A stretch of 64,000 bases of DNA from a candidate division KSB1 bacterium (lineage in GTDB: Bacteria > Zhuqueibacterota > Zhuqueibacteria > JANLFK01 > Oleimicrobiaceae), in NCBI GenBank assembly GCA_024655945.1, contig JANLFK010000003.1, forward strand, positions 248,001 through 312,000. Direction: 5' to 3'. This document shows positions 19,704 to 37,589 of the stretch, piece after piece. The first letter of the stretch is position 1, and every line of letters begins with the position of its first letter. Below the pieces are notes generated by a model. The model was not told the origin of the DNA, did not search any database, and saw only the letters and a program-made list of their open reading frames with translations. The position numbers were made by a program, and so were the translations under genes.

Positions 19704-19729
19704 AGGGCTGTTGTCGCACAGCCCTTTTT
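19704..19729 (+). terminator. intrinsic terminator after lon
   Basis: AGGGCTGT-TGTCGC-ACAGCCCT is a perfect 8-bp stem with a 6-nt loop, followed by TTTT. It starts 28 nt after the lon stop. Confidence 0.85.
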
Positions 19730-19802: not shown

Positions 19803-21236
19803 GTGGCACAGGTGGACTACCGAGAGGTGAGACGGCGCTTCGAGCAAGCTGGCCAGGGACATGTGTTCCGCTTTTGGGAGGAGCTGACCCCCACAGAAAG
19901 AGAGCGACTCTTGAGGCAAGCAGCCGGCATCGACTTAGCCTTCATGCAGGATTTGTGGCGTCGCTACATTCTCACACCCCAGGACCGCTTTTTTAAGGGC
20001 GAGCTTGACCAACCCGACGTCATCCCCATACCGGGCACGCCGGAACAGATGGCGCAAGCGGCGCAGGCACGCCTGCGCGGCGAGGAGGCCCTGCGCACCG
20101 GCCTCGTGGGGGTCATTCTGGTCGCAGGGGGACAAAGTTCGCGCTTAGGACAGCCTTATCCTAAGGGACTACTGCCCATAGGGCCCATTACCGGCAAGAG
20201 CCTGTTGCAGTTTCACGCCGAGAAGATTTTGGCCATCAGCCGGCGTGTCGGGAAGCCCATCCCCTGGTACATCATGACCAGCGAGACTACCCACACCGCA
20301 ACAGTCGCCCACTTTCGGGAAAACCGCTTCTTTGGCCTCCCGGAGGACTCGGTGCACTTTTTCCAGCAGAACATGATCCCCGCCATGGACAGTCAGGGCA
20401 AGTTCTTCTTGGAGGCCCGCGACCGCATCTTTGTCAACCCTGATGGCCATGGCGGGCTGCTTCGGGCTCTCAGCAGAAGTGGCGCCCTTGACGACATGCA
20501 AGCGCGCGGGCTGAAGTGGCTCTTCTACTTCCAGGTCGACAATGTGCTGATCAAGATCTGCGATCCGGTATTTCTCGGCTATCACTTGCGCGAAGGTGCG
20601 GAGGTGTCCGCAAAGGTGCTCCGGCGGCGAGATGGCCAGGAGAAGATGGGCATTGCCGGCAAAGTCGGCGGCAGGCCGGTGGTGATCGAGTACAGCGACT
20701 TGCACGAGGAGCGATTGGCCTCTCTGCTGCCGGACGGCAACCTTCGCTACTGGGCCGGCAGCATTGCCATTCACGTGTTCAATGTCGACCTGCTGGAGCG
20801 GTTACAGGACTCTGGGTTCAGCCTGCCGTACCACGTCGCCCACAAGAAGATCCCCCACCTCGATGCCGCAGGAAGGATGGTGGAACCTAAGAAGGAGAAC
20901 GGCTACAAGTTCGAGCAGTTCATCTTCGATGTGCTACCGCAGGCCCGCAAAGTTGTCTTCATGGAGGTGGCCAGGGGCGAAGAGTTCAGCGCGCTCAAGT
21001 ACTCGCAAGGGACTGACTCGCCGGCCACCGCTCAGAAGGACATGATGCGCCTATGGGCTCGCTGGCTGGAGAAGGCTGGCTGCCGGGTAGCGCGTGGCGC
21101 CGACGGCGACCCTAAGCATCCCATAGAAATCAGCCCACTCCGCGCCTTAGATGCCGAAGAACTTGCCGCCAGCTTGTCCGCCCCGCTTACCATGGAGGGG
21201 CCCATCAATTTGGAGGCGGAAGAGCCTCCCCGGTAG
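19803..21236 (+). CDS. UDPGP-family nucleotidyltransferase (UDP-N-acetylglucosamine pyrophosphorylase-like)
   Basis: 477 residues. The eukaryotic-type UAP/UDPGP signature is clear: LVAGGQSSRLGQPYPKGLLPIG at about residues 102-123, followed by SLLQFHAEKI. Further conserved pieces are FVNPDGHGGLLRAL, YFQVDNVLIKICDP and KKENGYKFEQFIFD. Such enzymes make UDP-GlcNAc, UDP-GalNAc or UDP-glucose from the sugar 1-phosphate and UTP; which one cannot be read here. The GTG at 19803 has AGAGAGG about 10 nt upstream. It heads a run of genes with short gaps, ending in cell-envelope proteins. Confidence 0.88.
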   Translation: MAQVDYREVRRRFEQAGQGHVFRFWEELTPTERERLLRQAAGIDLAFMQDLWRRYILTPQDRFFKGELDQPDVIPIPGTPEQMAQAAQARLRGEEALRTGLVGVILVAGGQSSRLGQPYPKGLLPIGPITGKSLLQFHAEKILAISRRVGKPIPWYIMTSETTHTATVAHFRENRFFGLPEDSVHFFQQNMIPAMDSQGKFFLEARDRIFVNPDGHGGLLRALSRSGALDDMQARGLKWLFYFQVDNVLIKICDPVFLGYHLREGAEVSAKVLRRRDGQEKMGIAGKVGGRPVVIEYSDLHEERLASLLPDGNLRYWAGSIAIHVFNVDLLERLQDSGFSLPYHVAHKKIPHLDAAGRMVEPKKENGYKFEQFIFDVLPQARKVVFMEVARGEEFSALKYSQGTDSPATAQKDMMRLWARWLEKAGCRVARGADGDPKHPIEISPLRALDAEELAASLSAPLTMEGPINLEAEEPPR

Positions 21237-21270
21237 CTTTGACGCGGCCGCTGAAAAGGCCACCCTTGCT

Positions 21271-24200
21271 ATGCATGGTCAGGCACAGACATTCCGACCC
21301 ACGAGGGGACGCTGGCTAAAGGTGCTGGGGCTTGCGCTGGCCCTCTACGTTCTTGCTTTCGTCGTCGGGGGTCTCCTGCTGCGAGTCTTGGTGCCTGCGG
21401 ACCGCCTATCTGAAGCGGTGCTGGCTACCCTTGAACAGAGCCTCGGCCGGGAGCTCTCCGTAGAGAGCATCCAGTTCGGGCTGTTCAGAGGCATCACCCT
21501 CAATGGGGTGCGCATGACCACCCCTGCGGGCGGCGACAGCATCGCGTTCCCAATCAGGAGTGCGACTGCCGAGCGCTTTGTCCTCCACTATCGTCTGCGT
21601 TCCCTTTTCAAACGTCGCCTCGAGATTACGGAGGTCTCCCTGCACAACCCCCGGCTTGAGCTGTTCTTCTCTGGGCCCTCGGCTACAATGCCGGCGGCGA
21701 CGCCCCAAGACTCGTTGCCACGGGCGGTTTCCGTTCCGGTGAGCGTGGCATTGCAGCGGCTGGAAATCCGCGATGCCCACTGCACGGTGACCATCGCCAC
21801 CGACACGTCACGCTTGGAATTCGGCCTCGCTGGGCTCACCTTTGTGGCGTCCAAGCTCTATCTGCCGCGGGGCAAGGGTGAGGCATGGCACCAGGCGACC
21901 GGTAAGATCGCGCTCACGTGCGACAAGGCTCCCCTCTTTTTCCGGCAGGAACTGGCAAGTGCGGGGCGCACAGAGGTGAAGTGCCTTTTGGACTTGCAAC
22001 TGGCCGCGGAGTCGCGCGGGCTCGCGGACGTGGAGGCGAGGCTGCTCATCGCCGCGCACCGGGGGCAGGTCCAGCTGTCGGGCGGCCCAGCCTTCTCGGG
22101 TACCTTGCCATCTGTGGAAATCACCACCACGCTTCGCGGGAACGTGCCCCAAGGGGAGTTTCTTGTGGACAGGCTGAGTCTGGGCCTTGGCGGACAGGAG
22201 CTTCTGGAATGCCGTGGCCAGCTCAGTAGCCTCGGCAGCCAGCCGAAGGTGCACGCGGAGGTGGTAGAGGGCGAGATTTCCTTAGGCAAGCTTCTGGCGA
22301 CCGTGCGGCCCCTCCTCACCGAGACGGCATTCGCCGGCCTGTTGCCCGAGCGGCTCTCCGGGAGGCTTTCTTTTGCCGGCACGAGCCTCGACTGGGCCTT
22401 CCCTTCCCTCGCGGGCGGGAGTTCTTTGGACGCAAATGCTGCGGTGGATCTGCGCGACCTGTCGCTGGTCGTGCGCGACGTAGCGACGGTGGAACACCTC
22501 ACGCTCTCTGCACGGTGGGCCGCATCGGCGGACAGCGCCGGTCTGCGCACGGGAGGAGCCTCTGCCTCGTTGGCCTTTGACCAGGTGAGGTACAATTCGC
22601 CGGGGCTCCCCATGAGCGCTTTCCGGGGGAAGCTGGAGTTGAAGGCACTCGCCGGCGAGCGGCTGAGCTCGTTGATCACGGATTTCACGCTGAAGGTGGC
22701 CAGCCTCATGGGAGGGGAGCTGGAGGGCGAAGTGCATCTGTCAGCAGGCCAGGCCGCTGCAGCCTGGCGCGGCAACGTAGTCATGGCCGTGCGCCGTCTC
22801 CCCTTGGCGCCACTTACCGCAGGACAGGTACGTGGCAGCACCACCAGCTCCTTAGCTGCAAGGGTACGAGGCCTCAGCGACATCGGGCTGGAGCTCACTG
22901 TGGGCGTTGATTCCTTGGCTGCTCTCCTGCAAGGTCGCGAGCAGAGCCTGTCTCCGTTAGAGCTCACCGCGCTCGGCAAGCTGCGCACTAACGTGCGTTT
23001 CGATGCGGTGACGGTGGACTCGTTGTTGCTCCAGCTTGCCGACATGGTTTCGGCGCGCCTGGCAGGAAGCTTTGGGCTCCAGGACGAGCGCTTTTCCTTT
23101 ACTTTGCACGACCTGACGCTCCACCATCGCCCCCTGCCGCGCCTGCTGCCGGTTGAACTTGGCGAGCAGATTGGAGTTATCTCGCTGGCAGGGGCCACTC
23201 ATGTGCGCGGCAGCGCTTCTGGCCAACTACTCCCCGACAACTCTCGTTTTGAAGTGCAAGGTTCCGTAAGCTCTTCTATCGGCGCGTCGCTGCCGGCGCT
23301 GGGGCTGCAGGTATCGGGCGTAAGGCTCGGGGCTGAGCTGGCGATGACGCCCTCCCTTGCCCGGGCCACAATCGAGGCCCGCTTGGATACGGCAATCATC
23401 GCGCAGATGCGGGCGGCGCCTATCACCGGCAGCGGCGCTCGTTTTGAGGTGTCCCTGCCAGAGCTGCAGAGCCTCGTGCTGACGCGAGGTGAACTCTGGG
23501 TGCCGGCCTTTGCCGCAAAGGGAGAGCTGTCCGGTCACATGGCACCAGGTGCAGCAGGGCCAACAGGCGCGGTGGATGTGGCCTTCTCCCTGGACGCGAC
23601 AGACACCGTGCACGTCACGGACACGGTGAGTTTGTTGGGCAGGGTACTGGCCAAGGCAAAGCTGCGCATGGATGGCTCGGTGGCGGGTGTGGAAGGCAAC
23701 ATCTCCATCCCCGGCCTTGCCGTGTATCTGCCAGGGGGGACCTCGCTGAAGGGTATCCGCGCCGCAATCCCCTTCTCTCAGGCCTTTGACCTCCAGCGCA
23801 TGGAGCTTGTCCTGTCACCCCTCGAACGGTACGCTTACTCGGGCCCGGCCGGCGCCTATCCATCGCTCTTCGCCGCCCACTTCGCCGATGCACTGCCCGA
23901 GCAGGGGTGGCTGACCATCGATCGGCTATCCTTTGCCGCCTACGGCGCTCGCAACCTCCGCATGCGCCTCTTTGTCGGCGGGGGCAAGCTCATGGTGCCG
24001 ACCATGCTCCTGGATGCCTATGACGGCAACTTTGGCGGCAGCTTGGCAGTGGAGTTTCCCGCCCTGGATTTGGCGCGGGTGCAGTACAGGGTAGAGGGGC
24101 ACCTGTCCGGGCTAAATTCCGCCCTTCTGGCAGCAAGGAGCGGACAGCCGCTGGAGAAGGGGATTATCAATGCCAACTTCCGCTTCACCGGTACCGGACT

Positions 24201-24522
24201 GGATGTGCAGAAGGGGATAGAGGTCGAGGGGTTCTTTCGCATCACCGACATTGGGCCACGGGTGGCCGACAATCTGCTGCGCTCTCTGGACCCTCAGGGC
24301 CTGGATGCCGGCATTCGCAGCGCGCGCTTTTTCATCAACCACGGGTTCAAGCCGCGCGAGATGTCCTTTGACCTGCGGCACGCCCACCTCTACCCCAGCA
24401 TCCACCTCTCGCAACCCTGGTACTTCCCGGTGCGGGTCGGCGGCGGCAAAGTGGAGCTGGCGCGCATTCCGGTGGCCTTCTTCTTGCAGATGATCAAACA
24501 GGAAGCCGTACCGACGTACTGA
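21271..24522 (+). CDS. AsmA-like inner-membrane-anchored protein
   Basis: 1083 residues. One N-terminal TM helix (about residues 17-38, LGLALALYVLAFVVGGLLL) is followed by a long beta-rich, low-cysteine chain typical of the AsmA/YdbH/TamB/YhdP group. These form periplasmic grooves that carry phospholipids to the outer membrane. The C-terminal part (GGKLMVPTMLLDAYDGNFGGSL, then repeated beta-strands) resembles AsmA_2-type C-terminal domains. The ATG at 21271 is 34 nt after the previous stop and has only a weak ribosome-binding site. The next gene encodes a DUF1318 lipoprotein, as ydbL accompanies ydbH in E. coli. Confidence 0.82.
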   Translation: MHGQAQTFRPTRGRWLKVLGLALALYVLAFVVGGLLLRVLVPADRLSEAVLATLEQSLGRELSVESIQFGLFRGITLNGVRMTTPAGGDSIAFPIRSATAERFVLHYRLRSLFKRRLEITEVSLHNPRLELFFSGPSATMPAATPQDSLPRAVSVPVSVALQRLEIRDAHCTVTIATDTSRLEFGLAGLTFVASKLYLPRGKGEAWHQATGKIALTCDKAPLFFRQELASAGRTEVKCLLDLQLAAESRGLADVEARLLIAAHRGQVQLSGGPAFSGTLPSVEITTTLRGNVPQGEFLVDRLSLGLGGQELLECRGQLSSLGSQPKVHAEVVEGEISLGKLLATVRPLLTETAFAGLLPERLSGRLSFAGTSLDWAFPSLAGGSSLDANAAVDLRDLSLVVRDVATVEHLTLSARWAASADSAGLRTGGASASLAFDQVRYNSPGLPMSAFRGKLELKALAGERLSSLITDFTLKVASLMGGELEGEVHLSAGQAAAAWRGNVVMAVRRLPLAPLTAGQVRGSTTSSLAARVRGLSDIGLELTVGVDSLAALLQGREQSLSPLELTALGKLRTNVRFDAVTVDSLLLQLADMVSARLAGSFGLQDERFSFTLHDLTLHHRPLPRLLPVELGEQIGVISLAGATHVRGSASGQLLPDNSRFEVQGSVSSSIGASLPALGLQVSGVRLGAELAMTPSLARATIEARLDTAIIAQMRAAPITGSGARFEVSLPELQSLVLTRGELWVPAFAAKGELSGHMAPGAAGPTGAVDVAFSLDATDTVHVTDTVSLLGRVLAKAKLRMDGSVAGVEGNISIPGLAVYLPGGTSLKGIRAAIPFSQAFDLQRMELVLSPLERYAYSGPAGAYPSLFAAHFADALPEQGWLTIDRLSFAAYGARNLRMRLFVGGGKLMVPTMLLDAYDGNFGGSLAVEFPALDLARVQYRVEGHLSGLNSALLAARSGQPLEKGIINANFRFTGTGLDVQKGIEVEGFFRITDIGPRVADNLLRSLDPQGLDAGIRSARFFINHGFKPREMSFDLRHAHLYPSIHLSQPWYFPVRVGGGKVELARIPVAFFLQMIKQEAVPTY

Positions 24523-24553: not shown

Positions 24554-25135
24554 ATGGCGCGACACATCGCAGCAGCAGTGGTACTGGCCGGCATAGTGGC
24601 CAGCTGCAGTATCCGCGCACCTGAAGTGCAGGTGACCGGCGAGAAGACCGCCTTGGAGAACCAGGTGATCGGCACCTACCAACAGGTGGCCGACGAGAGC
24701 TGGATGATCGCTTCCACGCGGGCGGCAGACAGCGACCAGAAGGCGCAAATGGCCACCGAGAAGAAAGAGGTTCTCGATGCGGTGCAAAACCGCAAGTTCA
24801 ACAAAGACGACATCGACGAGTTCAAGCGGGATGGCGCCTTGGGCGAGAACAATCAAGGTTTTCTGGAGCTCCGTCGCCTGCCCAGACTGGATCAGGACCC
24901 GGAGTATCGTAGCCTGGTGGTCAGGATCATGAACGAAGAGAATCGGGATCGCAAGATCATCTACGATCGGGTCTTGGAGCTCAACCCCAACGCGGGCCGC
25001 GCCGGTACGGCTGCCGTCTATGCGGTCTTTGCCAAGATGAACAGCGAAGAGTCCGTCCCGGGCACCTGGGTACAGGCTGAGGACGGCACCTGGTATCGCA
25101 AAGGCAAGGAGGCTGCCCCCAACGAGAAGAAGTAG
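24554..25135 (+). CDS. DUF1318 (YdbL-like) lipoprotein
   Basis: 193 residues. A lipoprotein signal (VLAGIVASC, Cys 17 modified) is followed by a short segment IRAPEVQVTGEKTALENQVIG. A domain at about residues 75-145 has the YdbL pattern: RDGALGENNQGFLELR, then VVRIMNEENRDRKIIYDRVLEL. In E. coli separate genes encode the lipoprotein YnbE and the periplasmic YdbL acting with AsmA-like YdbH. Here lipoprotein anchor and YdbL-like domain are in one chain. AAGGAGG lies 8 nt before the ATG. 31 nt after the AsmA gene and 9 nt before the CHAT gene. Confidence 0.85.
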   Translation: MARHIAAAVVLAGIVASCSIRAPEVQVTGEKTALENQVIGTYQQVADESWMIASTRAADSDQKAQMATEKKEVLDAVQNRKFNKDDIDEFKRDGALGENNQGFLELRRLPRLDQDPEYRSLVVRIMNEENRDRKIIYDRVLELNPNAGRAGTAAVYAVFAKMNSEESVPGTWVQAEDGTWYRKGKEAAPNEKK

Positions 25136-25144
25136 CGGCAATAC

Positions 25145-28100
25145 ATGAGCTCAGTGCGGCGCGACATATTCTCCGTTCTGCCTCTGCTGTGGCTTCTGGC
25201 GAGCCCACCGCCGTGCGCTCTGGCGGGCGGGCAACCGCTGCTGCCTCATCAGGTGACCACGCACCCTGCAGACGATTTGAGTCCTGCCCTTTCTCCTGAC
25301 GGCAAGTGGGTTGCGTTCACCTCCACGCGCAGCGGCAACCAGGATGTGTGGGTGCGGCCAGTCCATGGTGGCAAGGCGTACCAGATTACCACCCACCAGG
25401 CGGACGACTATTGCCCGGCCTGGAGTCGCAATGGTGACCGCCTGGTTTTTGTGTCCAAGCGTTCCGACGCGGCCGGCGACATCTGGATGGTGGAGCTTCG
25501 CCGCACAGGCAAGGCGATTCTTGCCAGGGGCGAACCAGTCAGACTGACCGACTATTTGGGCGAAGATGCCTTTCCCTCCTTTTCGCCCGACGGCACGGAG
25601 GTGGCCTTCTGTTCTGACCGCACCGGTCGGACGGAGATCTGGGTGCTGAGGCTAAAGCCGAGGTCCCTGACCCGGGTGACCTGGCAGGGCGGAAAAGAGC
25701 CCAATTGGTCGCCCGACGGGACATGGCTCGTCTACACCGCTTTCGATAGTCTTCGCCGCAACGGTACCATCGCCGTGACCCCCGCGCACCCGGACAGTCG
25801 GCCAGAGCTGCCCAAGGAAGTGCCTATCACCGATGGCTCGTGGTTCGATTGCCAGCCGGCTTGGTCGCCCACAGGCCACGAAGTTGTCTTCTGCCGCTTC
25901 CCCTACGACACGAATCACGACGGCAGAATAACGCCTGACGACAATCCGGTAATCGTCCGGGCGGCGGTGAGCCTGCCCTCGTCCCCTTCGCAGCTTCCTT
26001 CCGCTCCGCGCGAGCTGCAAGTGTGGCTCACCAGTGGTACGGATTTCGCCTTCGGCCCGAACTGGGCGAGCGGCGAATTGGTGTGCTACGCCTCCGATCG
26101 CAGCGGCAACCTGGACATCTGGGCAGTGCCTGCAGATGGGCTCATCCCTCGCCATGCATCGGCCATGGGGCAGCTGTCCTATGCGCGTGACGCTTTTCCC
26201 CTCCCCGCTTCGCCCCTTTCAGCCTTGTCCGCGCAGCAGAGGACGGGTCTTTACGAACGCCTGTTGGCCCTGCGGCGGGTGCGTGACTTTTTTCCGGCGG
26301 AACGGTCCTTCGTGGCCTTGGCCACCTTGGAGATGGCGCGCACCTACCGCGCACTTGGGGACGAAGCCATGGCACGTCAGGCGCTCCAGGAGCTGGAGGC
26401 GGAGTTCGCCGAGCAGGAGGAGGCGCGTGTTTTGGCGGCCGTGGAGAACATCGACATGGACATGGCCGAAGGGAGGATCGATTCCCTCGCTGCAATGCGC
26501 GCCTTGGCACGCCTTTTGGAAGTTCACCGATCTCAACCGCAGCTGGCGGTGCCCATTGCCATGCGCTTGGGCGGCCTGCAATTTGCCGCCGCTCAGTACG
26601 GGGAGGCGCTCACCTCCTACGGTTGGGTGCTGCAGCAGCAGGGCGCAGACCGCGAGGCGGCGGCCGAAAGCCAGCTGCGCATTGGCGACTGCCTTGACGC
26701 CCTTAGGCGCGAGGAGGAGGCAGAACGCGCCTACGCTCTGCTGGTGGACCGCTATCCTGAGCAGGAGACGACGGCGGCGCAGGCTATGGAGCGTCTGCTG
26801 CGGGAGAGGCAGCTCGCCGGCGACCGGCTGGCACTCTTGCGCCGCTGCCGTGAGGTGAGCAGCGCCTACCGCCTGCGCATGCCGCGCGTCGCGGCCTTTG
26901 CACAACTGCGCGCAGCAGAGCTTCTCCTGGCGGCCGGCGACTTCGAGGCGGCCCAGATTGAGCTGGCAGCCCTCCAGTCCGACTTTCCCGACCAGCGCAC
27001 GCTGGTCGCCCGCAGCCGATTACTCCTTGCCAAGGCCTACCAGGACGGTGGCGACTGGCGCAAGGCAGTGAGCGTTCTTCAACAGGCACAGGCAGAATTC
27101 GACACGGTTGCCGGAGGTCGTTGGGCAGAAGCGGCACGGCAGGCACTCTTCCGCGCCCTCATGCAATCTGGCGAGCAGCTACTCCAGGCCGCCTACTTTG
27201 CGCTCGCCGCAGCCCGCTATCGCCAGGCGCTGGAAGTGGCACCTAACGACATCGAGGCCCACCGCGGCTACATCCAGGCGCAGTACTACGGCCGAGCGAT
27301 TGACCAGGCCACCCGCGAATACCAGGCACGCCTGGTGCAACACCCCGATGACCCGCTGCTCCTGTACTGCCTGGGCCTGTGCCTGTCCTTCAAAGCCACC
27401 GAGCAAGCGGAGCTCTATGGCCACCAGGGCAGAATCGACCCTGAGCTCCTGGCTCGCTCCAATAGCCTCCTTGACAGGGCCCTGGAGGCCGACTATCGGA
27501 TGGTCTACGCCTACCTGACCAAGAGCTACAACTACGAGATGTTAGAGACCTATGACCGCCTGCGTCGCAGCAGACCGCAGACCCTCCCGCGAAGGGTCCT
27601 TGAGGCGATCTCGGCGCCGCTTGTTTCGGTGCTCAGAACGGTCACCATGGCCAAGGAAGAGGCCCAGGTGGGCAATTACGAACGAGCCATCGATGCACTC
27701 ACCATTGCCCTCGGCCTCAATGACGAAAATGAAAACCCAAAGTTGGAGGCCCGCCTCTGCCGCAACTTGGCGAACAACTACTACAACCTGGCCGAGTTCG
27801 GCTACCAAAAGGCCTACGAGTATTACCACCTCGCCCTGCGGTTTGATTCGACCTTCGCGAGCCGCCGGGATGAAGCAGTGATGATGGAAAGGATGGGCCA
27901 CTGCGCGTTGGTGGTGGAGGACTTTGAACGGGGGCCCACCTACCTGCGCCGCGCCATCGACTTGTACCGCGACCTCGGCAGAGAGGAGCTGGTGCTGCTC
28001 AACATAAAGCGGCTGGCCATGCTCTATCAGATGGCAGAGGACTATCTCTCGGCTGCCGAGTACTTTGAACAAGCCGTCGCCATGGAGACGCGGCGCGGTA

Positions 28101-31100
28101 ACCTCGGGGAGGTGCAGCGCCTCCATCGCAATCTCGCTTACAACTACTGGCTGTTGGGCGAGCCAACCGACGCCTACACGCATGCCATTCGCGCCCGTGA
28201 CCTTCTGGACAGCGGCAAGCTCAAGGAGGCCAAGGGCACATCCTCGCGCATCCAGGTCGGCGTGCTGGGGTGGTACGTCCCCATTCCCTTTGTCGATCTG
28301 AGCAAAATGGGGGCAATTGGCGGCAGCGCAGCCTTCGGCTTCACTACCGTCGAGGAACGAGCTCTGGTCTACACGATCCTCGGCAACATCTTAGTGGAGA
28401 CGAAACGCTACGAGGAAGCCATCCGCGAAAACGTGAAGAAGCTTGCCCTCTACCGCAAGCGGAAAGATGTCCGCGCTGAGGCAGCGGTGCTCAACAACCT
28501 CGGCTATCTACAACTGCTGAAGGGGGATCCACTGGGCGCTTGGCAGCAGTGCGAGCGCAGCTACGACCTTTGCCTGAAGCAGAAGGTGGTAGCCGGCGTG
28601 GTCGTCAACGCCATCAATCTTGGCCAACTGGCGCTGCTCCTTTCGGATCCTGCCCTATGCGATGCTGCTGCAACTCGTCTGGACCGCGCGTTGAGTTTCA
28701 CGGAGGGGCAGTCGCGGGTTCTCGTGCAGCGGCGCGCCCAGCTCCTCAACCTCCTCGGCGCCCTCACCTTGGAGCACCAAGCCCAGCGCGCCGCGGAGGC
28801 CGATTTTCAGGATTCCCTGCGCCACACTGTGGAAATATTCCAACGCGCCGGCTATGCGCAGACGTACTTCGAAGAAGCGCTCAACCTCAGTCTGCGGCGG
28901 CGGCTGCCGCGCGAAGAGGCCCTTTCCAGGATGAATTTGGCGCGCTGTTGGGCCGTGCTCGGCGAATGGGAGCACGCCGCTCTTCATCTCTTGCAGGCGC
29001 GTCGCCTCTGCCAGACCAGGGGGTATGGCGACCTGCTCTGGCAGGTCAACCAGGGGCTCGCCGAGCTTGCTGACCGCCTCGATGAACGGGCCCGGACCGA
29101 TTTAAGACTCAGCCCCCCACGCGTCTACTTTGCCGAGGCGCTCACCGAATTGCGCGCGGCGAGCGAGGCTGGCATCACCCGTCTGGTGCTCCCCATGGAA
29201 CGCAGCCGCCACCGCCAACTGTACGAGGAGTATGCATTCCATCTGGCGACCATCGGCGATACGCTTGGCGCTCTCCAGGCTGCAGAGGAGCTGCGGGCCC
29301 AGGCTTTCTTGGATGCCACCTCAGGGGAGGCCATTCGCCTAAGCAGCCCCACGCGCACCAATCTGCTCAACTGGGTGCGTACCTTTCGGGAGGAGTTAAC
29401 CGCCTCAGAGCTCAAGGTGCGGCAGCTGAGCGCCGTGCTGCAGCGGAACGCCCCCGAGCTCATCAGGTGGCGCGCAGCGCAAGACAGCCTCCGCCGCGAA
29501 TACGAACAGGCATTGGCACGACTCCGCCAGGAAGCGCCTGCACTGGAAGCGCTGGTGACAGTCCACTCCCCCTCGTTGGCGGCCGTGCAGCATGCCCTGG
29601 AAGGCGACGAAGTGGCGTTGGCCTTCCTGGTGGGCGCCCGACACACGCTGCTCTGGGCAGTCACTCCCCGGCGTGTAGCCATGTTCCGCATTCCCACTGG
29701 CGCCGAAGGGATCCGCCAGCTCACCGAAGGCTTTCTCAAAAGCTCGCCAGACGACAGCTCGCGCCAAATGATAGCCAGGCTCTTCATGCCTGCGGCGGGC
29801 CTGCTCCGAAGAGCGCGCCGGGCCATCATCGTCCCGGATGGCTTTCTTTTCCGGTTGCCGATGCAGGCGGCAGTGCTGGCGTCGTTGGGCCAGGAGGCGC
29901 CAGCGGTCACTGTCTGCTCCAGCCTGAGCAGCTACGTGCTTGCCGCAAACCGCCGCACAGTCGGTGGCCCAGTCGTTTTCCTCGCCGACACGCTCCTGCA
30001 ACACCCGCTGCAGGAGCTCGGCTACGAGGTCGTCTCCCTCCCCAGATTGCCGGGTAAGGAAACGCAGGCACGGGAGGTTTCCCAGGTCCTTCTGGGGAGC
30101 AACATCGTGCACTGGCGAGCCACCTGGCAGTGGCAAGAGACAGCCCCGCTGCACTCGGCTCTGCAACTCGCCGATGGGCAGGGGGGCTTTACGCTGCGTC
30201 TGCTGGATCTTTTCGAGGTCATCTCCAACGCGACCGTGTGCGTCATAGACGGAGGGGAGACGGCCGCGTACGGGTCGGCTGCGCAGTTGGTTGACCGCTT
30301 GCTGGCACTGAGTGGCAGCGCTGCAGGCTTGCTGGTGGGCGACGAAACATCACCCGAGGCACGTCTTACCTTCTACGAGGCATTCTACCGCCAGCTCCTG
30401 GAGAAACCTCCCGCCGAAGCCTTCCGTGCCGCGGTGCAGGCGGCTATAAAAAAGGGCATGGGCAATCTGTCCGCCCAACTGGTGGGTTACGGCGGCATGA
30501 GCAGGGTTGAGGCCAGCACCTATGCCGAACGCGCGCTGGCCGGCAAGGTACGAGCAGGGCTGCAGGCAGAGCAAGACAAGGACTGGGGCGACGCGGTACG
30601 GTTCTACGAGGAGGCTTTGGCCATGGCCACCGCGCGCCAGGACAGCGCGAGCATCCAGCGCCTCCGCCTGCTGATCGTGCGCGCCTCTGCCAGCGGCGGC
30701 CTTGTGCGCAAGACCATTCAGTACCAGCGCTTGCTGGCCGCCGAGGCCGACCGCAAGGGAGATCCGCAGCTCCAGGTGCGGCGCTCCCGCAATCTCGCTT
30801 CGCTCTACGCCCAGGCCGAGGACTATGCTGCGGCCATTGCGGCGATGGAGCACGTCAGAGAGGTTGCGAGCAGCTCTCAAGAACAGCTGTTACCTGAGCT
30901 GCACCGGGAGTTGGGGATCGTGCACGAGCGGGCCGGGCATTATCAGGCCGCCCTGGAGCAGTACGAGGCCTCGCGCGCCCTGTATGCCGCGGCGGGCGCC
31001 AGCGAAGGTCAAGCGCTGAATCTGAGCGACATGGGGCGCGTGGCCCTGCGCTACCTGGAAGACTACCCCCTGGCCCTCCAGCACTTGTCCGCTGGCCTTG

Positions 31101-33412
31101 CCCTCTTGGAGGCGCAGGGCCCGTCCGCAACGCTGGTGGAGGTGCTGAACAACCTGGGCCTCGCCCACGAAATGATGGCCGACTACCGCGCAGCCGTCGA
31201 CGCACAGCGCCGTGCCAGAGAGCAGGCGGAAAGACTCAAACTTCCGGACAAGGTGGCCTTGTGCGAACACTACCTTGCCAACCTTGCCTGGAAAATGGGT
31301 GACTATCAGGAAGCCCTGCAGCACAACCGGCGGGCCTTGCAGGCCTTCGAAAAACAGGGCGACTTGTCCCTGCAGGCACTGGCCTTAGCGACCCGGGGCC
31401 TCATTCAGCTGAGCATCGGCAACGCACCGCAGGCGTTGCGCGACCAGCACAACGCCTTGGAGATAGCAATTCGCACCGGCGAGCTCCTCGACCAGGCCAC
31501 CATTCGCAAAAACATCGGGCTGGTGCACGTCACCTTGGGCGAGTATGAAAAGGCGCTGGTGGAATTCACCGCTGCCGCCCACCTCGACAGCACTATCGGT
31601 AGGCAACGAGGCCTGTCCTATGACCTGCGCAACATGGGTGCCCTGTTGCTGCAGAAGGGGCAATTGACAGGGGCCGACGAATCGCTGCGGGCAGCCCTGA
31701 CCCTCAGCAAGGAGGTTGGCGACCGCCGTAACGAAGCGCAATGCCTCTACTACATTGGGGCGGTGCGGCGCGCGCAGCGGAACAGGGAACAGGCTGTCCT
31801 TTACCTGGAGCAAGCAGCTGCTCTTGCGCGCTCCCTGTTCGTCCCAGAGGTGGAATGGCGGGCGCTGCACCAATTGGGTCTGTTGCAGCGGGAAGCGCGC
31901 CGTCTCGAGGAAAGCCGCGCCAGCCTGCTGCAGGCGGTGCAGGTCGTCGAACAGATGCGCGCGCGCATCAAGGTGGCCGAGCATCAGGCAGGCTTCATCA
32001 ACGACAAACAAGAGGTCTACGCCGACCTTATCGACCTGCTGATTGAGATGGGCCGTGACGAGGAGGCTTTTGCCATCGCCGAACGAGCTCGCTCACGCGG
32101 CTTCTTGGACATGCTCGGCAACCGCCAGCTCGCCTTCGGTGCGCGCACCAGCCAGGAGTTGTACGATGCGCTTACCGGCGTGGAAGCGCAGATGCGCAAC
32201 GTGCAAGAGGAGATCGCCCGCCTGCGCAGCGTAGAACCAGAACAAGCGAGCGCGGCGCAGAAGGAACGATTGCAACAACTGAGCGCAGAACTGACCAAGC
32301 TGCGCAGCACCTATGAGAGCCAGCTGATCAGGCTCAAGGAATCAGATCCTCGCCTGGCAGATATGGTCACCGTCGACCCCTGGCCGCCATCACGTGTGCA
32401 GGCGCTGTTGCCCCCAGGCGTGGCCGTGGTGGAGTACTTTGTCGGCAAGGATCGTCTGTTCATCTGGCTGGTGACCAGCGCGACGCTCAAGGCCTGGGCA
32501 ACACCGCTCGGCCAAGAGGAGCTCTACAAGGAAGTGGGCCAGGTGCGCCAGGCAATCAGCCAGCTCTCCACCGTGAGGCAGCGCAGTGCGCGGCTGTGGC
32601 AGGCGCTCATCGCGCCGGCCGCTCCCTCGCTGCAAGGGGTCTCCACTCTGGTCATCATCCCGCACGGGCCTCTGCACTACTTGCCCTTTGCCTGCCTGGT
32701 GGACCCGCAGGGCCGGTATCTGATAGAGACTTTTTCCTTGGCAACCGCGCCCAGCGGCACCGTACTGGGCATGTGCATGGAGGGCGGAAGCCGGTTCCTC
32801 TCCACGCCACGCCAGGAGTTCCGCGTGCTTGCCTTGGGCAATCCCACACTGCCAGGCCAGCCGCGGCCCCTCCCCATGGCAGCCAAGGAGGTGGAGAGCA
32901 TCTCCCGGAGTTTTGCCAAGGTGGACAAGTTCCTCGGCACCTCTGCCACCGAGACGGTGGTGAAAGCTGCTCAGAGCCCGTACGATGTCTACCTCTTCTC
33001 CTGCCACGGCGAATACGATTCCGCCAACCCTCTGTTTTCGTCACTCCTGCTGGCGCCCGACAAGGAGAACGACGGGCGGCTCGAGGCACGGGAGGTCTTC
33101 TCCTTGCGCCTGGAGAGCTATCTGGTGGCCATGAGTGCCTGCGAGACGGCGCTGAGTTCCATTGCCGGTGGCGATGAGATCATTGGCCTCACGCGCAGTT
33201 TCGTCTTCGCCGGGGCCTCTTCGTTGTTCGCCAGCCTGTGGAAAGTCGATGACTTGGCCACTGCGGTCATGGTGAAGCGCTTTGTGCGGTACTTGGCGGA
33301 GGGCGAAAGCAGAGCCCGGGCGCTGCAGCGCGCCCAACTGCTCGTGATGAGCGAGGTCAATGCCCATCCGGCCTACTGGGCAGCGTTCCAGTTGATAGGG
33401 GACTTCCGGTGA
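25145..33412 (+). CDS. giant secreted PD40-TPR-CHAT protein with an inactive first CHAT domain
   Basis: 2755 residues. Order: signal peptide (about 1-27); six PD40/TolB-like propeller repeats (about 35-330, such as SPDGKWVAFTS, SPDGTEVAFCS), with a DTNHDGR calcium-type loop; a long TPR array (about 360-1330); a first CHAT-like domain (about 1470-1790); a second TPR array (about 1800-2320); and a C-terminal CHAT domain (about 2410-2755). The last has the caspase-like dyad His2621 (SCHGEY) and Cys2666 (MSACET). In the first, Trp1661 and Gly1704 stand where His and Cys should be, so it looks catalytically dead. CHAT is a clan CD cysteine peptidase fold usually regulated by attached repeats. The export signal puts this one outside the cytoplasm. 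Substrate unknown. Confidence 0.93.
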   Translation: MSSVRRDIFSVLPLLWLLASPPPCALAGGQPLLPHQVTTHPADDLSPALSPDGKWVAFTSTRSGNQDVWVRPVHGGKAYQITTHQADDYCPAWSRNGDRLVFVSKRSDAAGDIWMVELRRTGKAILARGEPVRLTDYLGEDAFPSFSPDGTEVAFCSDRTGRTEIWVLRLKPRSLTRVTWQGGKEPNWSPDGTWLVYTAFDSLRRNGTIAVTPAHPDSRPELPKEVPITDGSWFDCQPAWSPTGHEVVFCRFPYDTNHDGRITPDDNPVIVRAAVSLPSSPSQLPSAPRELQVWLTSGTDFAFGPNWASGELVCYASDRSGNLDIWAVPADGLIPRHASAMGQLSYARDAFPLPASPLSALSAQQRTGLYERLLALRRVRDFFPAERSFVALATLEMARTYRALGDEAMARQALQELEAEFAEQEEARVLAAVENIDMDMAEGRIDSLAAMRALARLLEVHRSQPQLAVPIAMRLGGLQFAAAQYGEALTSYGWVLQQQGADREAAAESQLRIGDCLDALRREEEAERAYALLVDRYPEQETTAAQAMERLLRERQLAGDRLALLRRCREVSSAYRLRMPRVAAFAQLRAAELLLAAGDFEAAQIELAALQSDFPDQRTLVARSRLLLAKAYQDGGDWRKAVSVLQQAQAEFDTVAGGRWAEAARQALFRALMQSGEQLLQAAYFALAAARYRQALEVAPNDIEAHRGYIQAQYYGRAIDQATREYQARLVQHPDDPLLLYCLGLCLSFKATEQAELYGHQGRIDPELLARSNSLLDRALEADYRMVYAYLTKSYNYEMLETYDRLRRSRPQTLPRRVLEAISAPLVSVLRTVTMAKEEAQVGNYERAIDALTIALGLNDENENPKLEARLCRNLANNYYNLAEFGYQKAYEYYHLALRFDSTFASRRDEAVMMERMGHCALVVEDFERGPTYLRRAIDLYRDLGREELVLLNIKRLAMLYQMAEDYLSAAEYFEQAVAMETRRGNLGEVQRLHRNLAYNYWLLGEPTDAYTHAIRARDLLDSGKLKEAKGTSSRIQVGVLGWYVPIPFVDLSKMGAIGGSAAFGFTTVEERALVYTILGNILVETKRYEEAIRENVKKLALYRKRKDVRAEAAVLNNLGYLQLLKGDPLGAWQQCERSYDLCLKQKVVAGVVVNAINLGQLALLLSDPALCDAAATRLDRALSFTEGQSRVLVQRRAQLLNLLGALTLEHQAQRAAEADFQDSLRHTVEIFQRAGYAQTYFEEALNLSLRRRLPREEALSRMNLARCWAVLGEWEHAALHLLQARRLCQTRGYGDLLWQVNQGLAELADRLDERARTDLRLSPPRVYFAEALTELRAASEAGITRLVLPMERSRHRQLYEEYAFHLATIGDTLGALQAAEELRAQAFLDATSGEAIRLSSPTRTNLLNWVRTFREELTASELKVRQLSAVLQRNAPELIRWRAAQDSLRREYEQALARLRQEAPALEALVTVHSPSLAAVQHALEGDEVALAFLVGARHTLLWAVTPRRVAMFRIPTGAEGIRQLTEGFLKSSPDDSSRQMIARLFMPAAGLLRRARRAIIVPDGFLFRLPMQAAVLASLGQEAPAVTVCSSLSSYVLAANRRTVGGPVVFLADTLLQHPLQELGYEVVSLPRLPGKETQAREVSQVLLGSNIVHWRATWQWQETAPLHSALQLADGQGGFTLRLLDLFEVISNATVCVIDGGETAAYGSAAQLVDRLLALSGSAAGLLVGDETSPEARLTFYEAFYRQLLEKPPAEAFRAAVQAAIKKGMGNLSAQLVGYGGMSRVEASTYAERALAGKVRAGLQAEQDKDWGDAVRFYEEALAMATARQDSASIQRLRLLIVRASASGGLVRKTIQYQRLLAAEADRKGDPQLQVRRSRNLASLYAQAEDYAAAIAAMEHVREVASSSQEQLLPELHRELGIVHERAGHYQAALEQYEASRALYAAAGASEGQALNLSDMGRVALRYLEDYPLALQHLSAGLALLEAQGPSATLVEVLNNLGLAHEMMADYRAAVDAQRRAREQAERLKLPDKVALCEHYLANLAWKMGDYQEALQHNRRALQAFEKQGDLSLQALALATRGLIQLSIGNAPQALRDQHNALEIAIRTGELLDQATIRKNIGLVHVTLGEYEKALVEFTAAAHLDSTIGRQRGLSYDLRNMGALLLQKGQLTGADESLRAALTLSKEVGDRRNEAQCLYYIGAVRRAQRNREQAVLYLEQAAALARSLFVPEVEWRALHQLGLLQREARRLEESRASLLQAVQVVEQMRARIKVAEHQAGFINDKQEVYADLIDLLIEMGRDEEAFAIAERARSRGFLDMLGNRQLAFGARTSQELYDALTGVEAQMRNVQEEIARLRSVEPEQASAAQKERLQQLSAELTKLRSTYESQLIRLKESDPRLADMVTVDPWPPSRVQALLPPGVAVVEYFVGKDRLFIWLVTSATLKAWATPLGQEELYKEVGQVRQAISQLSTVRQRSARLWQALIAPAAPSLQGVSTLVIIPHGPLHYLPFACLVDPQGRYLIETFSLATAPSGTVLGMCMEGGSRFLSTPRQEFRVLALGNPTLPGQPRPLPMAAKEVESISRSFAKVDKFLGTSATETVVKAAQSPYDVYLFSCHGEYDSANPLFSSLLLAPDKENDGRLEAREVFSLRLESYLVAMSACETALSSIAGGDEIIGLTRSFVFAGASSLFASLWKVDDLATAVMVKRFVRYLAEGESRARALQRAQLLVMSEVNAHPAYWAAFQLIGDFR

Positions 33413-35564: not shown

Positions 35565-35887
35565 CCGGATACTTGCCACGCTCCAAGGCCTCTGTTCGGA
35601 AAGACGACACGATTACACCCCAATTACGGATTTGAAATTGTGATGCAGAGCACAGGCTCAAATGTGAAGAAAATGACAAGGGCTCGAAGAGGAGCGGTTT
35701 CCCGGGCGCTCGCTGCTGCTTGTCCCAAGACCATGTGTTCCTGTGGACTTGCCCTCGCAGCTTGGACGCTTGCCGTGTCGACCATCGCCCCGTCCTTGGC
35801 GGCGAGTGGTCGATTTTTTGCACACCTTGGCGTGGCCCCGAGGTGCTCGGGCCATGGCAAGCTGAACCACAACGAGGTGTGCGAGGC
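35565..35887 (+). other. intergenic leader upstream of the sigma-54 activator
   Basis: 323 bases. Frames continue open through it, but the translations (Ala/Arg/Cys-rich, up to 83 codons) show no family signal apart from one stretch that looks like a chance signal peptide. A -24/-12 type element at 35807-35822 is listed separately. No terminator hairpin was found after the ABC gene. Confidence 0.4.
35807..35822 (+). promoter_or_regulatory. candidate sigma-54 promoter (-24/-12)
   Basis: TGGTCGATTTTTTGCA has the invariant GG and GC dinucleotides exactly 10 nt apart and a perfect TTGCA -12 half. The -24 half matches only TGG. It lies 66 nt before the start of a sigma-54 activator, as expected for autoregulation. 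Confidence 0.35.
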
Positions 35888-36979
35888 ATGAGGGACGAGT
35901 TGACGGACACCCTTGCCGGGGTGTCAGTGGTGGGGTGCGACTTCCCGGAGGTGGCGGAGAAGAGTGGCAGCAGTGCCTTTGGGTTTGACTACTACTACCC
36001 CATGGTCAGTCACAACCCACAGATTCGGCAGATGCTCTCGCTCATCAGGAAAGTAGCGCGGAGCAACGCCACCGTGCTCATCCAGGGCGAGACGGGCACC
36101 GGCAAGGAGATGATGGCCGGCCTCATCCAGATGCTCAGCCTGCGTGCCGACAAGCCTTTTGTCCAGGTGAACTGCGCGGCCCTGCCAGACCAGCTCTTGG
36201 AGAGTGAGCTGTTCGGCCACGAGCGTGGCGCCTATACCGGCGCCTACACCACGCGCATCGGTAAGTTCGAGCTGGCCGACAAGGGGACGCTCTTTCTGGA
36301 CGAGGTTGGGGATATGGCCCTGCCCACCCAGGCCAAGATCCTGCGCGTGCTGCAGGAGCAGCGCTTCAATCGCTTAGGTGGCAACCGCATGATCAATGTG
36401 GACGTCCGCGTAATCGCAGCCACCAACAAGGACCTGGAGCGGGAGATTGAGCTGGGCAACTTCCGGCTGGACCTGTACTATCGACTGAATGTGGTACAGA
36501 TCAACATTCCCCCTTTGCGTGAGCGGCGCGAAGATATCCCCATTCTTGCCGAATATTTCCGGCGCAAGTTCGCCTCGGAAATGAAGAAAGAGGTGGGAGG
36601 ATTCACGCAAGAGACGATGCGCCTGCTACAGAACCATTCCTGGCCGGGGAACATCCGCGAGCTGAAGAATTTGGTGGAGAGGGCGGTCATCGTCGTCGGC
36701 GAAGGGCAACAGATTACGCCCAACGACCTCTCCCTCTCCGGCCGTGACTACTTTGCCGCGGGTGGCCAGAATCGCCGCCGCCTGGAAAGCGACTGCGGCG
36801 GCAGACTCACCACCCTCAACCTTGCCGAGCTGGAGCGCACTGCAATTCTGCAGGCATTAGAGAGGACAGGCTGGGTGCAGAAGGAGGCGGCTGCGCTCCT
36901 CGGCATTTCGCCGCGGGCGCTCAACTACAAGATCAGTCAGCACAACATCACCCACGAGTCGTGGAAAAAGCATGTGTGA
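35888..36979 (+). CDS. sigma-54-dependent transcriptional activator without receiver domain
   Basis: 363 residues. A short N-terminal region (about 35 residues) leads directly into the AAA+ domain: Walker A GETGTGKE, the sigma-54 contact loop GAYTGA (Tyr in place of the usual Phe), Walker B GTLFLDEVGD, and RLNVVQINIPPLRERREDI. The C-terminal Fis-type helix-turn-helix is ALERTGWVQKEAAALLGISPRALNYKI. With no receiver, GAF or PAS domain it resembles PspF-type activators controlled by a partner protein. The ATG at 35888 is chosen because earlier in-frame codons encode non-conserved sequence. It overlaps the next gene by 8 nt. Confidence 0.92.
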   Translation: MRDELTDTLAGVSVVGCDFPEVAEKSGSSAFGFDYYYPMVSHNPQIRQMLSLIRKVARSNATVLIQGETGTGKEMMAGLIQMLSLRADKPFVQVNCAALPDQLLESELFGHERGAYTGAYTTRIGKFELADKGTLFLDEVGDMALPTQAKILRVLQEQRFNRLGGNRMINVDVRVIAATNKDLEREIELGNFRLDLYYRLNVVQINIPPLRERREDIPILAEYFRRKFASEMKKEVGGFTQETMRLLQNHSWPGNIRELKNLVERAVIVVGEGQQITPNDLSLSGRDYFAAGGQNRRRLESDCGGRLTTLNLAELERTAILQALERTGWVQKEAAALLGISPRALNYKISQHNITHESWKKHV

Positions 36980-37589
36980 GGCGATGGGAAGAGAGGCTAC
37001 GAAGTTCTTGCTTGCTGTAACCTTGTCCGTATTCTTGTCCACCGTTGCTCAGGCTGGCCACCTGGTGATTGTCTGGGAGCCAAACCACGAACCGGATGTG
37101 GCCGGCTACATCGTCCACTACGGCACGCGGCCCGGCACATACGAGGCGTCCCTCGACGTGGGCGCAAAGACCCGCGTTCTGGTGGGCCCATTGGCAGACA
37201 GCGTGCGCTACTACTTTGCGGTGTCCGCCTACGACAGGTGGAACAACGAGAGTGCCCTGTCGCGAGAGGTGAGCGGCGTGGTGGGCCAAGGGGAGATTCT
37301 ACCCACCGAGTTTGTCCTCTACCCCAGCTTTCCCAATCCCTTTGCGACCGATACGTGGCTTGCCTTTGATCTGCCTTCCTCCGAAGAGGTTGAGCTCCGC
37401 ATTTTCGACATCAACGGCAAACTGGTGCGCACCCTGCGTCCGGCTGCCACCAATCCCGGAGCAAATGCCCCTGTGCTCTGGGACGGTCTTGACGACTCCG
37501 GCCGTCCTGTGCCGAGCGGCATCTACTACTGCCGTGGCTTTGCCTCCACTTTCCGCAGCCAGACTATTCGCATCATCCGCCTGCGCTGA
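36972..37589 (+). CDS. secreted protein with FnIII-like domain and type IX-style C-terminal sorting domain
   Basis: 205 residues. Signal peptide at about 1-28 (FLLAVTLSVFLSTVAQAG). A fibronectin type III-like domain follows (HLVIVWEPNHEPDVAGYIVHYG, then VRYYFAVSAYDRWNNESALS). The last 95 residues match the Por_Secre_tail/FlgD-like sorting domain: FVLYPSFPNPFATDTWLAFDLP, VELRIFDINGKLVRTL, WDGLDDSGRPVPSGIYY. Proteins of this kind are exported across the outer membrane by type IX secretion in FCB bacteria. The small size suggests a scaffold or surface piece. Translation is probably coupled to the activator gene. Confidence 0.85.
   Translation: MCEAMGREATKFLLAVTLSVFLSTVAQAGHLVIVWEPNHEPDVAGYIVHYGTRPGTYEASLDVGAKTRVLVGPLADSVRYYFAVSAYDRWNNESALSREVSGVVGQGEILPTEFVLYPSFPNPFATDTWLAFDLPSSEEVELRIFDINGKLVRTLRPAATNPGANAPVLWDGLDDSGRPVPSGIYYCRGFASTFRSQTIRIIRLR

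Follow-up and report, generated by a model that had tools for sequence, protein, structure and literature searches.

Csx29 of the type III-E CRISPR system (Craspase) is a cytosolic protein of about 700 aa that carries TPR repeats and a C-terminal CHAT domain and is bound to Cas7-11. Separase, which acts in chromosome cohesion in eukaryotes, is a large protein of helical repeats that ends in a CHAT-like protease, and an inactive caspase-like part is found within that protease region. Catalytically dead bacterial caspase-fold proteins have been described as pseudo-orthocaspases (PMC6426788), and the CHAT-TPR protein HetF belongs to the cyanobacterial divisome (PMC8406250). Among envelope proteins, three AsmA-like proteins of E. 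coli, one of which is YdbH, have been proposed as phospholipid carriers between the membranes (PMC8593681), and an interaction of YdbH with the outer-membrane lipoprotein YnbE has been described (PMC12977461). Caspase-fold pseudoproteases and TPR-CHAT proteins are therefore not new in themselves; the context in which they occur here is unexpected. Our searches of the open literature, outside which most subscription papers lie, found no publication on the giant protein family described below or on CHAT proteins at AsmA/DUF1318 loci.

Architecture and export of the giant protein

The window (the whole stretch of 64,000 nucleotides that was analysed) lies in a genome of 3.94 Mb (contig C3, positions 248001-312000) and encodes, in one unbroken frame on the + strand (25145..33412), a giant exported-type protein of 2755 aa. 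An earlier note on this DNA had read the chain as signal peptide, PD40, TPR, CHAT, TPR, and CHAT, which is confirmed; Pfam finds PD40 (E=1.3e-35), eight stretches of TPR_12, and two stretches of CHAT (E=3e-69). All features of the chain lie on the + strand. The signal-peptide-like N-terminus, about residues 1-27 with the ending ...CALA/GG (25145..25225), was recognized from the sequence and its homologues and is followed by a TolB-like PD40 propeller (PF07676) at residues 36-335 (25250..26149), in which six repeats can be counted by eye and four stretches are marked by Pfam. A first TPR array (26222..29296) leads to the first CHAT domain, CHAT1 (residues 1385-1800; 29297..30544), and a second array (residues 1801-2334; 30545..32146) leads to the C-terminal CHAT2 (residues 2335-2755; 32147..33409). 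The dyad of CHAT2 is intact, with His2621 in an SCHG motif (33005..33007) and Cys2666 in an SACET motif (33140..33142); in the alignment the catalytic His and Cys places of CHAT1 are taken by Trp1661 (30125..30127) and Gly1704 (30254..30256), respectively, and all four residues stand where they had been placed earlier. Residues 700-1160 are among the best-conserved parts of the family. As a candidate TolB the giant was rejected, scoring 113.8 bits against the equivalog cut-off of 343.

The giant resembles the described caspase-fold proteins in some respects and differs from them in others. The combination of TPRs with a C-terminal CHAT domain, and the Cys/His motif of CHAT2, are shared with Csx29, but the giant also has a signal peptide, a propeller, and a second, dead CHAT domain, and no Cas genes are present among its scanned neighbours. 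Separase resembles it in general layout and in structure, but the dead domain of the giant is a complete CHAT that precedes the C-terminal one by about 950 residues and follows a TPR array of its own. CHAT1 recalls the pseudo-orthocaspases in being a catalytically dead bacterial caspase fold, and HetF, which has an envelope or division role, is likewise a bacterial CHAT-TPR protein; these, however, are single caspase-like domains in other architectures.

A signal-peptide-like N-terminus was called in 43 of 46 giants and in one of 15 cytoplasmic controls, using a crude home-made charge-plus-hydrophobicity rule rather than SignalP, and a few giants have a lipobox. Export had been thought unusual for such proteins, which does not hold in this phylum: judged with this rule or by eye, such an N-terminus is also present in about 18 of the 20 ordinary TPR-CHAT proteins sampled from the phylum, and export is therefore the norm there. 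These ordinary secreted-type proteins of about 1100 aa (L107-L126) are common in the phylum, with several per genome. The genome carrying the window encodes a second CHAT protein, of 609 aa (L050 5421-7247; G000 contig C6).

The two CHAT domains across the family

Both CHAT domains score above the 24-bit cut-off of PF12770, CHAT2 with 225.8 bits and CHAT1 with 33.9. The AlphaFold2 model of CHAT1 (pLDDT 89.4, pTM 0.88, with 30 homologues as input) is matched by Foldseek in the PDB to Csx29 (2.9e-10) and separase (4.2e-4), and also to the Craspase TPR-CHAT and DdvA; the model of CHAT2 (pLDDT 88) recovers the same set more strongly (Csx29 4.1e-15, separases to 4.8e-11). By profile and model, CHAT1 is a true CHAT fold, as had been supposed for the internal copy. 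The two domains of the giant match each other in BLAST over 196 alignment columns in their N-terminal halves (E=8e-10), and a CHAT1-only profile matches the CHAT2s of the family nearly end to end (E 1e-46 to 1e-61 in most live members). In the CHAT alignment, the motif SCHGEYDSANPLFS aligns with ATWQWQETAPLHS, and MSACETA aligns with IDGGETA. An unrooted tree of CHAT1, CHAT2, and 21 ordinary CHATs resolves three groups; in this tree the Lac Pavin MAG entry labelled "CHAT1" is its CHAT2, a selection artefact. Profile scores bearing on the tandem duplication proposed in the earlier note are split and are partly contaminated by CHAT2 stretches (38/53).

With Csx29 and TPR-CHAT as the closest solved structures, and with weak PADLOC matches, the giant could be proposed to be a defence or cell-suicide protease of the Craspase or caspase type. 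We consider this highly improbable, as it reaches 46.3 of the 300 bits required by the Csx29 model, the scanned neighbours include no CRISPR or defence genes, and it is found in most genomes of the phylum, inherited with a fixed neighbourhood. The assignment of the giant as a Csx29 or Craspase was rejected on this score and on the absence of cas genes noted above.

Named relatives are MAGs assigned to candidate division KSB1, Calditrichota, LCP-89, and Delongbacteria, which makes Zhuqueibacterota or one of its neighbours the probable phylum. The conserved mid-section is matched strongly (E < 1e-70) in 50 of 69 phylum genomes, each at least 80% complete, and a 51st giant (G003) was located via its gene neighbourhood; most giants of the family are encoded in frames of about 2500-2880 aa. 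The CHAT1 domain is present in 52 members, spread over the phylum and extending outside it, and not one of these 52 readable members keeps its His or Cys; the two former dyad sites hold 12 and 14 different residues. Simple Nei-Gojobori counts, in which synonymous sites are partly saturated in more distant pairs, give a within-genus dN/dS (G000 versus G001) of about 0.17 for CHAT1, 0.11 for CHAT2, and 0.075 for the middle TPR region. Because it is dead in 52 of 52 members and yet under purifying selection, CHAT1 is, as far as sequences can tell, an old and maintained pseudoprotease, in agreement with the earlier reading of the first copy. The earlier note had named two results that would overturn this reading, a fold other than CHAT or homologues with His/Cys at these places, and neither was observed. 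No part of the chain varies more than CHAT1, which is less conserved than CHAT2 and is missing in family f2, as would be consistent with decaying debris that has no function, but its confidently predicted fold, its low dN/dS, and its retention in 52 members across such a range make this explanation very hard to credit.

In CHAT2, His and Cys are both present in 37 of 42 readable members, suggesting a potentially active Cys/His protease in most lineages. The domain is degenerate in G022, G041, G058, G044, and G057, and it is probably dead in G010, where the region cannot be aligned. Two giants, G005 (1843 aa) and G062 (1838 aa), stop after CHAT1, and no CHAT2 remnant was found in any frame; in the family-f2 giants G008 and G013 (about 1650 aa) no CHAT was detected, including by hhalign. 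The f2 giants (L085 5784-10721, L086 2-5059) keep the operon and the PD40-TPR core, and their C-terminal 350-450 residues are without a detectable CHAT. A tree of the PD40-TPR core requires at least four changes between the live and the not-live state, and by this reckoning the live state of CHAT2 has been lost at least four times.

These losses bear on the earlier proposal that the dead copy is a built-in regulator or substrate trap holding off CHAT2. The two domains are homologous and share one chain, and neighbouring domains are known to control TPR-CHAT proteases of known function (Craspase papers). However, if restraint or feeding of CHAT2 were its sole job, CHAT1 would be expected to degenerate after the death or loss of CHAT2, and instead it persists in the five members with a degenerate CHAT2, in G010 with its probably dead one, and in the two that stop before it. 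CHAT1 has been kept in several independent lineages in which it has no live partner, which argues against regulation or trapping as its main role. It is also the less conserved of the two domains, and its former active site is without a fixed residue, as if the pocket binds nothing. We regard the proposal as improbable for the main role of CHAT1; regulating or trapping may be an additional function in members with a live CHAT2.

The gene neighbourhood of the giant

The giant is preceded, with nine bases ahead of its ATG, by a gene for a DUF1318 (YdbL-family) lipoprotein of 193 aa (24554..25135, + strand; PF07027, 2.8e-12). Its lipobox is VASC, and the lipobox Cys is kept in all aligned DUF1318 family members. 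Upstream of this gene lies one for an AsmA-superfamily protein of 1123 aa (21151..24522, + strand), assigned from Pfam and orthologues, with an N-terminal membrane helix and a TamB-like start; DUF748, AsmA, and YhdP match weakly in this copy, and AsmA matches reach 7.6e-21 in orthologues. This conserved AsmA-like/DUF1318 neighbourhood had no place in the earlier note.

In 41 of the 45 phylum genomes with assembled upstream DNA, a DUF1318 gene is found upstream of the giant on the same strand and within 2.3 kb. All four exceptions belong to family f8, most of whose members have the DUF1318 gene elsewhere. At least 28 genomes have the AsmA gene ahead of DUF1318; it lies 3' of the giant instead in the f8 genomes G011 and G027, which have a complete giant, and G039, in which the giant is truncated, and families f3, f9, and f11 have a strong AsmA match elsewhere in the genome. 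The DUF1318-giant pair also occurs in an LCP-89 genome and the Lac Pavin MAG. In two genomes (L027 3047-4645, L029 3017-4561) a glycosyltransferase-like membrane protein, recognized by eye, is encoded between DUF1318 and the giant.

The genes also tend to occur together. Across the 69 genomes, 48 have both the giant and DUF1318, 16 have neither, three have only the giant (each at a contig end), and two have only DUF1318 (Fisher p=7e-11, with related genomes counted and no correction for kinship). Genomes without the giant and DUF1318 contain no full-length AsmA-like match, only short generic ones, and the AsmA-like match of G064 is a 148-residue terminal fragment (4.8e-37). The giant, DUF1318, and AsmA-like genes are thus largely present or absent together. 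Both the giant and DUF1318 are missing from family f5 (G006, G015, G019, G031, G042, and G048), from family f6 (G007, G012, G016, G020, G024, G028, and G036), and from genus g35 (G049 and G056) of family f10, the rest of which has both. Since two whole families and one genus within a third lack the module, it has been lost more than once.

Genes for a UGPase (19803), the AsmA-like protein, DUF1318, the giant, an HD protein, an ABC ATPase, and a sigma-54 activator follow one another on the + strand, overlapping or separated by short gaps, and may form one operon. A strong terminator-like hairpin is located 3' of lon (window 19704-19725), and a protein with a FlgD-Ig/Por secretion-tail domain closes the gene run (window 36972-37589). 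The sigma-54 activator, three genes downstream of the giant (35720-36979), and the Foldseek matches of both CHATs to the transmembrane anti-sigma factor DdvA (8.5e-7 for CHAT1, 2.6e-12 for CHAT2) would fit an extracytoplasmic sensor in which the TPR and PD40 regions sense an envelope signal and CHAT2, with its DdvA-like fold, cleaves a signalling protein. This seems unlikely to us, as the signalling gene is not a constant neighbour beyond the genus and the module stays intact despite repeated loss of the catalytic dyad. DdvA is also a structural lead only; a sequence match between it and the giant was looked for and none was found.

The neighbourhood invites comparison with E. coli, which was found with the same DUF1318 model (PF07027) and in which ydbL (DUF1318) shares the locus ydbH-ynbE-ydbL. 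In both cases an AsmA-superfamily protein adjoins a DUF1318 protein and a lipoprotein. In contrast to E. coli, the lipobox is here on the DUF1318 protein itself, and no separate ORF for a YnbE is present at the giant locus; the E. coli locus, in turn, is without a giant, its next gene being feaR. The AsmA-like protein could not be placed in the YdbH family, as hhalign gave a probability of 0.7% and the YdbH model was unmatched, and it is assigned to the AsmA superfamily only.

A possible role in the cell envelope

Its gene company suggests that the giant contributes structurally to the construction of the cell envelope. In the explanation we favour, and in which we place about even confidence, the giant would serve as a scaffold in intermembrane lipid transport of the AsmA type, and cleavage by CHAT2 would be optional. 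The three genes would encode a cell-envelope module of an AsmA-like bridge protein, a DUF1318 lipoprotein, and the giant. We infer that the latter is an exported scaffold, periplasmic or, in some members, lipid-anchored, and that its PD40 propeller and TPR core are the partner-binding parts. CHAT1 would be an ancient pseudoprotease retained for its fold, to bind proteins or to act as a spacer, and any cut by CHAT2 would be regulatory and optional, with a module partner as a conceivable target. Consistent with this, the PD40-TPR core is kept in G005 and G062, which are without CHAT2, and in G008 and G013, which are without a detectable CHAT. Against it stand the failure to match the AsmA-like protein to the YdbH family, the lack of a separate YnbE gene, the location of the AsmA gene elsewhere in f3, f9, and f11 and of the DUF1318 gene elsewhere in most of f8, and the many roles of PD40-TPR proteins. 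A bolder version, which we put forward only tentatively, is a phylum-specific outer-membrane biogenesis machine in which the giant, as a periplasmic scaffold with a pseudoprotease/protease CHAT pair, would organise the AsmA-type bridge and the DUF1318 lipoprotein, and lipid traffic to the outer membrane would be gated by regulated caspase-like proteolysis where CHAT2 is active.

If the scaffold explanation is correct, it would link CHAT proteases of the separase and Craspase type with AsmA-type intermembrane lipid transport, two fields that have not yet met. The family would also offer a natural series of live, dead, and absent proteases with the same gene neighbours, in which the part played by a caspase-like domain in an envelope machine could be probed, and a conserved pseudoprotease that must do more than simply inhibit its active twin. 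Finally, a likely process would be assigned to a giant protein that is encoded in most genomes of an uncultured phylum.
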